Assembly: GCA_903831635.1 (NCBI GenBank)
Contig: CAIKYN010000227.1
Location: 1-33,200, forward strand
Length of the DNA: 33,200 nucleotides
Direction of reading: 5' to 3'
Origin: an uncultured Spartobacteria bacterium
Lineage (GTDB): Bacteria > Verrucomicrobiota > Verrucomicrobiia > Chthoniobacterales > UBA6821
Part shown: positions 12,424 through 14,174 of the stretch, piece after piece
Numbering within the stretch: position 1 is the stretch's first letter
How the letters are laid out: each line of letters opens with the position of its first letter
The notes under the pieces: generated by a model
The model's input: only the letters and a program-made list of their open reading frames with translations
The model's database searches: none
What the model was told of the DNA's origin: nothing
Made by a program: the position numbers and the translations under genes

Positions 12424-12498
12424 AGAGCCGATAATTAAATCTTGGGGAGAGCTTTTTTGTGTCCCTTGCGGATTACTGCTCGTGGCGTATTTTTCCCC

Positions 12499-13194
12499 AT
12501 GATCTCTTCATGCTTTGGGGACCTTCCCCGGACCGAAAGGCCGCGTGAACGGCTTTTCAGTCATGGGGCCTCTGTCCTCACCGATGCAGAACTCTTAGCC
12601 CTGTTCCTACGCACGGGTAAAGTGGGGTTGGACGTCATGTCTCTGGCCAAATCCTTGTTGGTTGAGTGGGGTAGCTTGAGACGATTAGCTGGATGCTCCG
12701 TTGAGGAACTTTCCTCACTTCCCGGCATGGGGCCAGCCAAGGCTGCGGAACTCAAGGCTGCTTTTGAAATGGGGCGCCGGATGGCATTGCCTGAGGAAGA
12801 ACGCCCAAGAATTGATCGAGCCGGAGTGATCCACCGACTCCTTGCCCGTGAGATGGAAATTCTACCCTATGAGTCGCTTCGTGTTCTGATGCTGGATACC
12901 CGTCACGGTCTTCTGGAACATCGTGAAGTCTCTCGAGGAAGTCTGAATGAAAGCATCGCCCATCCGAGGGAGATCTTTCGTCCCGCCATCGCCAAGGGGG
13001 CGTATGCCATAGCCGTAGTCCATAACCATCCCTCAGGCGATCCCCTGCCTAGTGAGGCAGACCGGCGACTGACGCGTCGTCTCACGGAAGCCGGGACACT
13101 TCTTCAAATTCCTCTGGTCGATCACGTCATCATCGGAGCGACACGTGGGGATCAATCCCCATATTTCAGTTTCCGTGAAGCGGGACTGATGTAG
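12499..13194 (+). CDS. radC: RadC family JAB/MPN+ domain protein
   Basis: ORF 12442..13194 with likely start at 12499 (MISSCFGDLPRTERPRERLFSHGA); HhH-like LPGMGPAKAAELKAAFE; VVHNHPSGDPLPSEAD metal-binding motif. Confidence 0.9.
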   Translation: MISSCFGDLPRTERPRERLFSHGASVLTDAELLALFLRTGKVGLDVMSLAKSLLVEWGSLRRLAGCSVEELSSLPGMGPAKAAELKAAFEMGRRMALPEEERPRIDRAGVIHRLLAREMEILPYESLRVLMLDTRHGLLEHREVSRGSLNESIAHPREIFRPAIAKGAYAIAVVHNHPSGDPLPSEADRRLTRRLTEAGTLLQIPLVDHVIIGATRGDQSPYFSFREAGLM

Positions 13195-13249
13195 GCAATG
13201 GGTGTTGAAAGGCTGTACTGAATCCATAAATAAATCATAATTGACGCTA

Positions 13250-13322
13250 CTTGCCTCCCGGCAAGCGGTGGCGCCCTTCGGGCTGCCTTCGGCAGTCTTA
13301 CGCGCCACTTCCCAGTGGCTTG
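13250..13322. repeat. Multi-hairpin palindromic intergenic element (REP/MITE-like or structured RNA; class unknown)
   Basis: Perfect inverted repeats: CTTGCC/GGCAAG (13250-13255/13260-13265, loop TCCC); GTGGCGC/GCGCCAC (13268-13274/13302-13308); GCCC/GGGC (13273-13276/13280-13283, loop TTC); CTGCC/GGCAG (13283-13287/13291-13295, loop TTC); CCACT/AGTGG (13305-13309/13314-13318, loop TCCC); CAAGC/GCTTG (13262-13266/13318-13322). Confidence 0.7.
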
Positions 13323-13355
13323 TTTCAATCCTGCATCCCTCATAATCTGAACCTG

Positions 13356-14174
13356 ATGTCCAAGATTCATCCCTCTGCTTTCGTTGATCCCGCTGCAGTC
13401 CTTGCTTCCGATGTGGAGGTTGGTCCAGGAGCAATCATTGAGGCTGGAGCCGTGATCGGCGAGGGATGCAGGATTCAGGCTCACGCTGTGATTACAGGCC
13501 ATGTGCACATGGGTGCCAGAAATACCGTGGGATATGGAGCCATCGTCGGTGCCGATCCTCAGGATTACGATTTTAAGCCCGGCACGAAGAGCGAGGTTGT
13601 CATCGGTGATGACAATATCATCCGCGAATACGTCACCTTACACCGCGGCACCAAGGAGGGGACAGTCACCCGCGTCGGGGACAAAAACTTCCTCATGGTG
13701 GGGGTCCACCTCGGTCACAACAGCTCGGTCGGCAACAAGGTGATCATTGCCAATAACTGCCTCCTTGCAGGGTATGTCGAGGTTCAGGATGGGGCAGTGC
13801 TTGGCGGTGGTTCGGTTTTCCACCAGTTCCTGCGTGTTGGCAAACTCTGCATGGTTAGGGGAGGGGAGCGCTTCCCGAAGGATATCCCTCCTTTTGTCTC
13901 TGCTTATGGGACCAGCATGGTGGCCGGTATCAATGCTGTCGGCCTCAAGCGTGCCGGGATGAGTTCCGAGACGCGTCTTGAGATCAAGCGGGCCTTCCGC
14001 CTGATCTATCACAGTGGCAGGAATATCTCTCAGGCTCTTGAGGAATCGAGAAAGGAAACATGGGGTCCCGAGGCACAGTACTTTCTCGATTTCATCGCCT
14101 CTGCCAAGAAGCGTGGCGTCTGCGCAGCTAAACCTGTCCGGGGGAAAGGCGGAACGACCGAAGACGAGGAATAG
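13356..14174 (+). CDS. lpxA: Acyl-ACP--UDP-N-acetylglucosamine O-acyltransferase
   Basis: ORF 13251..14174 with true start at 13356 (MSKIHPSAFVDPAAVLASDVEVGPGAIIEAGAVIG). Hexapeptide repeats, GVHLGHNSSVGN with the two catalytic-region His, GGGSVFHQFLRVG. Confidence 0.92.
   Translation: MSKIHPSAFVDPAAVLASDVEVGPGAIIEAGAVIGEGCRIQAHAVITGHVHMGARNTVGYGAIVGADPQDYDFKPGTKSEVVIGDDNIIREYVTLHRGTKEGTVTRVGDKNFLMVGVHLGHNSSVGNKVIIANNCLLAGYVEVQDGAVLGGGSVFHQFLRVGKLCMVRGGERFPKDIPPFVSAYGTSMVAGINAVGLKRAGMSSETRLEIKRAFRLIYHSGRNISQALEESRKETWGPEAQYFLDFIASAKKRGVCAAKPVRGKGGTTEDEE

Follow-up and report, generated by a model that had tools for sequence, protein, structure and literature searches.

The window is a stretch of 33,200 nt from an uncultured Spartobacteria bacterium, and all feature coordinates are given on its + strand. 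Between the genes radC and lpxA it carries a cluster of four hairpins, which is a copy of a dispersed element and not a single oddity of this locus. The covariance model R1, built from 60 copies, matches positions 13241-13326 with 98.5 bits (E 1.9e-26). The element is 83 bases long here and about 83-100 bp across its family, and it is a mobile hairpin element that had not been described before. The parts of this copy, followed by the two flanking genes, are listed below.

13241..13323, + strand: element TTGAC...CTTGT, one member of the dispersed four-hairpin family (bounds from family comparison with homologous copies)
13245..13273, + strand: hairpin 1, with an outer 5-bp stem, an inner 6-bp stem CTTGCC/GGCAAG, a TCCC tetraloop and a 3-nt bulge (8 of 11 pairs covary)
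13274..13282, + strand: hairpin 2, CCC-TTC-GGG, template strand C(GAA)G (stem nearly invariant; triloop TNC in 52/74)
13283..13295, + strand: hairpin 3, CTGCC-TTC-GGCAG, template strand C(GAA)G (7 of 7 pairs covary; triloop TNC in 83/110)
13304..13319, + strand: hairpin 4, GCCACT-TCCC-AGTGGC (6 of 6 pairs covary)
13300..13302, + strand: 5' foot of hairpin 4, ACG, partner of 13321-13323 (TGT) (outermost foot pair changed on both sides in 12 of 60 copies)
13321..13323, + strand: 3' foot of hairpin 4, TGT (foot-pair covariation in 60 copies)
13324..13326, + strand: TTC, first letters of the right-hand 7-bp TTCNNNN repeat that many copies show (left duplicate of this copy not clear)
12442..13194, + strand: radC, the upstream gene, which stops 46 nt before the element
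13356..14174, + strand: lpxA, with its true start at 13356, 29 nt past 13326

Pairing and covariation

RNA folding of positions 13246-13325 gave a z-score of -3.36 against dinucleotide shuffles, with none of 200 shuffles equally good, and DNA folding of the element region gave -3.08 on the + strand and -3.23 on the - strand. The four compact hairpins with TCCC, TTC, TTC and TCCC loops, described in an earlier reading made from the letters of the stretch without database searches (the sequence-only reading), are present and fold better than the shuffles. That description left hairpin 1 too short, its outer stem CGCTA/TGGCG (13245-13249 paired with 13269-13273) enclosing CTTGCC-TCCC-GGCAAG, and it missed the foot pairs of hairpin 4. 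The statement that no T-tract follows is only nearly true, as TTGTTT lies directly 3' of hairpin 4, which a pattern scan lists as terminator-like. The open reading frame (ORF) from 13251 had rightly been taken for a spurious extension of LpxA; the start at 13356 is common to the closest relative, which is without the element.

The four hairpins are kept by covariation. Over the 60 copies 93.7% of pair cells are standard, cells with a double change number 228 against 69.9 in shuffles, and pairing falls to about 40% when the partner is slid by one column. Relatives from across the order (set A4) are 89.4% paired, with 132 double-change cells against 42.5. The sequence-only reading had also described an enclosing 7-bp stem, GTGGCGC/GCGCCAC, and a competing CAAGC/GCTTG pairing, and had proposed a switch between two folds. 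Both pairings exist in this copy, and the alternative pairings have a covariation score of 0.034 over the 60 copies against 0.033 when shuffled (74.8% paired against 74.7%), so that they are accidents of this copy; with no conserved alternative pairing, an RNA attenuator or switch was rejected.

The kind of pairing is also informative. In 222 non-redundant host copies, foot pairs excluded, 78 G.U cells stand against 145 A.C cells, G.U thus not being favoured; 26 distinct phage copies hold 2 G.U and 5 A.C in 655 cells, and for the two outer foot pairs of hairpin 4 all 52 phage cells are Watson-Crick. G.U pairs are normally tolerated in RNA families, and because they are rare here the pairing looks like that of DNA, or like the outcome of template switching between hairpin arms. 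The almost purely Watson-Crick pairing is taken as pointing to DNA rather than RNA hairpins. The TNC triloops of hairpins 2 and 3 read GNA on the - strand, and C(GNA)G triloops occur on the template strand in most hairpins 2 and 3.

Copies in host chromosomes

A BLAST search of the genome from which the window comes found three strong copies, and R1 found seven. In an R1 search of 15 congeners, most hold from 13 to at least 114 copies (at least 114 in G006), two hold 3 and 6, and one holds 0. The suggestion of a mobile palindrome resembling repetitive extragenic palindromes (REPs) or miniature inverted-repeat transposable elements (MITEs) was therefore borne out, with 7 copies here, dozens to more than 100 in relatives and very strong covariation; the element is multicopy and covaries, and is not the single copy without covariation by which that suggestion was to fall. 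Almost every named record in which the hairpin-1 pattern occurs is a freshwater metagenome-assembled genome (MAG) of Spartobacteria/Chthoniobacterales. Other families of the order hold weak, structurally faithful relatives with quite different stems, and a phylum sample of 388 genomes gave no matches outside Chthoniobacterales. Two short contigs of a MAG named Akkermansiaceae (L157, L158) carry the element near their ends; they are probably mis-binned, because MAG15, seemingly of the same study, has many copies.

The element is present or absent at orthologous sites and is frequently flanked by 7-bp TTCNNNN repeats. At the radC-lpxA locus it is absent in the closest relative and occurs as an inverted copy in two others; a clean empty site was not recovered at this locus, where the flanks diverge too fast. 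Copy boundaries take the form TTCNNNN, TTGAC...CTTGG, TTCNNNN, and over 156 copies the identity of left and right flanks is 0.466, against 0.357 +/- 0.010 in shuffles, with by far the maximum at exactly 7 nt. The intergenic DNA of the genus abounds in tandem heptamer or octamer tracts built on TTCNNNN or TTCNNNNN, whether or not the element is there, such as TTCAGGT, TTCATCC/TTCATAA and TTCAACCC, for example in the flanks of L231 (G004:C20), L228 (radC-lpxA of G001) and L059.

Some copies lie in frame within genes, for example xseA and those of glycosyltransferases. In xseA, which encodes the large subunit of exonuclease VII, one species has an in-frame copy in the N-terminal linker, a second has a degenerate remnant (loci L045/L245 of G006 and L247 of G007), and others have none; this linker is hypervariable across the genus, so that presence or absence can be told clearly but an exact junction cannot. 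Tandem copies are common, and so are truncated and composite ones. In L114 (4054-4306) the loop of hairpin 2 contains a 163-bp insert with ends ATACCAT...ATGGTAT, probably a further small mobile palindrome sitting inside the element.

Resident copies decay. Among orthologous host copies the compensated fraction of pair changes is 0.08 at 8-11 differences and 0.16 at 12-15, whereas equally diverged dispersed copies reach 0.43 and 0.54. Changes being mostly uncompensated at orthologous sites and largely compensated among dispersed copies, structure seems to be required for propagation and not at each site, which argues against an essential role at lpxA; the copy there is probably a passenger insertion, without an essential role for lpxA, since copies at orthologous host loci decay. 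In the orientation of the element, a long ORF with an ATG start begins 20-100 nt downstream in 42 cases, against 15 on the other side (binomial p 0.0005, the copies being not fully independent), and the lpxA copy agrees with this bias. In two islands, L300 (G006:C53) and L074 (G012:C67), many copies in the same orientation, some fused head to tail, alternate with Fic, MNT/HEPN, Phd, RloB-like and restriction genes and look like a cassette array.

Copies in front of virion genes

A first pattern scan of IMG/VR, using hairpin 1 only, located the element in contigs that also encode terminase, portal, protease, capsid and tape-measure proteins, and a second, which used the phage tail CTTGTTTGACA, led to 36 matches of the model, of which 26 rows are distinct, from at least seven phage lineages. 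The phage copies lie just upstream of portal, protease, scaffold, tail-tube and head-tail genes and are co-oriented with them. Among the 24 distinct full phage copies, the start codon of the co-oriented gene comes 16-20 nt downstream of the element in 18 and 31 nt downstream in two. The motif TTTGACA, followed by ATG 13-17 nt on, is recurrent in these phages, also at hairpin-free genes. A strong intrinsic terminator stands 41 nt before one phage copy, so that transcription may need to restart there. At orthologous positions of diverged phages the structure is maintained with new stems (compensated fraction 0.77), and in pairs with at least 4 differences 99 pair changes are compensated against 30 broken, these changes not being independent. 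The phages are presumably those of Spartobacteria; INPHARED phage and PLSDB plasmid records gave no sequence matches.

The genome bin of the window itself contains a 35.7-kb phage-like contig, G000:C414 (L410/L411), with a portal gene related to those of element-bearing phages. Its head-tail and tail-tube genes have, at the same place, a sister multi-hairpin leader, TTTGTCTGCC...TTTTGACA, whose predicted fold is multi-branched and closed by TGTC/GACA. The R1 search gave no match in this contig or in two contigs with related portal genes.

Family membership and possible function

The element works like a mobile palindrome of the type of REPs or Rickettsia palindromic elements (RPEs), consisting of dispersed, multicopy, mainly intergenic palindromes which vary between species, and it belongs to no family tested, as the defining tests of REP, MITE and attC failed. 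With REP/REPIN sequences, which carry a GTAG tag and are served by a REP-associated tyrosine transposase (RAYT), it shares shortness, dispersal, mostly intergenic position, palindromes and high copy number, and Verrucomicrobia (Opitutus terrae) have been reported to be rich in GTAG repeats (PMC3733652). It differs from them in its 83-100 bp, its four hairpins and its occurrence before phage late genes; there is no conserved GTAG at a hairpin foot, the sole GTAG lying in hairpin 3 and alternating with GCAG and others. The RAYT partner for which the sequence-only reading proposed a search did not materialise: PF01797 genes are absent from the genome of the window and from 13 of the 15 congeners, and those found elsewhere have no intact element alongside. 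The inspected ones have GGGGTC-type flanks of their own, in which they resemble tyrosine transposases associated with terminal inverted repeats (PMC3733652). PF01797 genes with GGGGTC-containing repeats are L204, L218 (G006), L207, L219 (g2) and L209 (G027), and L218 adjoins a truncated copy of the element. Reverse transcriptases are nearly absent and do not fit as a partner.

CGTC-tagged REPs and RPEs are likewise without a dedicated transposase (PMC3733652), and RPEs can sit in frame within genes (PMC10969869), as the element does, but hairpin architecture and ends differ, and the element has a CGTC solely on the opposite strand, at its other end, where it lies partly within the stem. MITEs are similar as small non-autonomous repeats, and their short flanking duplications may have a counterpart in the 7-bp TTCNNNN match, which is far above shuffles, but heptamer tracts pre-exist; the ends TTGAC and CTTGG are not inverted repeats and no parent transposon was found. 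TAACTGA repeats of Beggiatoaceae and cyanobacteria are tandem heptamers upstream of genes, as are the TTCNNNN tracts around the element, but the unit differs and the abstract describes no associated hairpin element (PMC4679880). No Rfam family was matched above its gathering score, either by the element in the window or in four phage contigs.

The attC sites of integrons are hairpins recognised as folded single-stranded DNA, and they form arrays in one orientation. Their core pair, RYYYAAC/GTTRRRY, is found in 0 of 222 copies, which led to rejection of attC. Two congeners (L297, G001:C154; L298, G005:C123) have chromosomal integrons that carry intI and attC arrays of the ordinary kind, and the attC sites there are unrelated to the element. 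That the element is an integron-like cassette site, as the L300 and L074 arrays of co-oriented copies between toxin-antitoxin and restriction genes in two species might suggest, is hardly credible given the missing core pair and the true integrons in the genus, and HepT loci show no significant enrichment (4/14 against 5/31).

We lean, by a modest measure, towards a non-autonomous mobile repeat of DNA hairpins, shared by Spartobacteria and their tailed phages, in which the hairpins act as DNA and the lpxA copy is one insertion. The hairpins would form in single-stranded or cruciform DNA, and they would let a putative recombinase propagate the element; in phages their task would be at the 5' boundary of a late gene, which they would mark or open, and the lpxA-side copy would be one such insertion. 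Phages most likely use the element, or spread it, as such a boundary, and a role in phage gene expression is likely; action at the DNA level, and any transcriptional role, we infer from the sequences. Several points weigh against this reading. The phage set was enlarged with a pattern containing CTTGTTTGACA, start-codon spacing being in no query, and the hosts of the element-bearing phages are inferred, not proven. Heptamer tracts also occur without the element, so that the 7-bp repeats could be pre-existing tandem repeats, and the comparisons yielded no clean empty site that holds just one heptamer. No enzyme that could mobilise the element turned up: neither RAYT nor reverse transcriptase nor integron integrase/attC fits. 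Template-switch repair between hairpin arms is another possible source of the strict Watson-Crick pairing. A broader proposal, which we regard as possible and hold tentatively, is that multi-hairpin DNA is the standard late-gene 5' boundary signal of Spartobacteria phages, read as extruded hairpins to start or insulate transcription, and that it moves between phage and host and has seeded hosts with dozens of ready-made leaders, including that of lpxA.

The spacing of 16-20 nt before most phage start codons, the 42 to 15 bias in hosts and the terminator-like hairpin 4 with TTGTTT would also suit a structured RNA leader before phage late genes and some host genes such as lpxA, which protects, tunes or attenuates the 5' end of the message, dispersal being secondary. 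This is doubtful, as G.U pairs are almost lacking despite heavy covariation, host copies at fixed loci are uncompensated, no alternative fold is conserved and Rfam has no match; such a leader, also raised by the sequence-only reading, is plausible in phages and not shown for lpxA, because host copies drift. Phage N4 promoters suggest another role, since their C(GNA)G triloop type extrudes readily and they are, like the element, DNA hairpins upstream of phage genes with such triloops on the template strand (PMC4496689). RNA polymerase would recognise extruded template-strand hairpins as the N4 virion RNA polymerase does and initiate just before the gene, host copies being escaped promoters. The triloops of hairpins 2 and 3, of the loop type on which extrusion of N4 promoters depends (PMC4496689), the strict Watson-Crick pairing and the terminator 41 nt before one phage copy are in keeping with this, but it is unlikely: N4 promoters use one hairpin, not four, and the element precedes late virion genes, some phage copies are without an upstream terminator, and an N4-type polymerase was not seen in the partial phage contigs, in which no search was aimed at one. 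Passive palindromes, made and perfected by replication template switching so that covariation arises without selection or mobility, would account for the pairing and for the common tandem and composite copies. They are a very unlikely explanation, since across the order and in phages the TCCC loops, the foot pairs, the ends and the spacing relative to genes are conserved, which passive origin would not explain.

The usual explanation for repeated palindromes in bacteria is a RAYT transposase, and such palindromes are not generally recognised as leaders of phage genes. A single structural family here plays both parts, as a repeat of chromosomes and as a leader with a set position before virion genes, and phage genomes are therefore a direct route to the function of the structure and to the spread of the repeat. 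Covariation restricted to Watson-Crick pairs helps to tell DNA-level from RNA-level selection, and host and phage copies offer a natural contrast between decay and maintenance.
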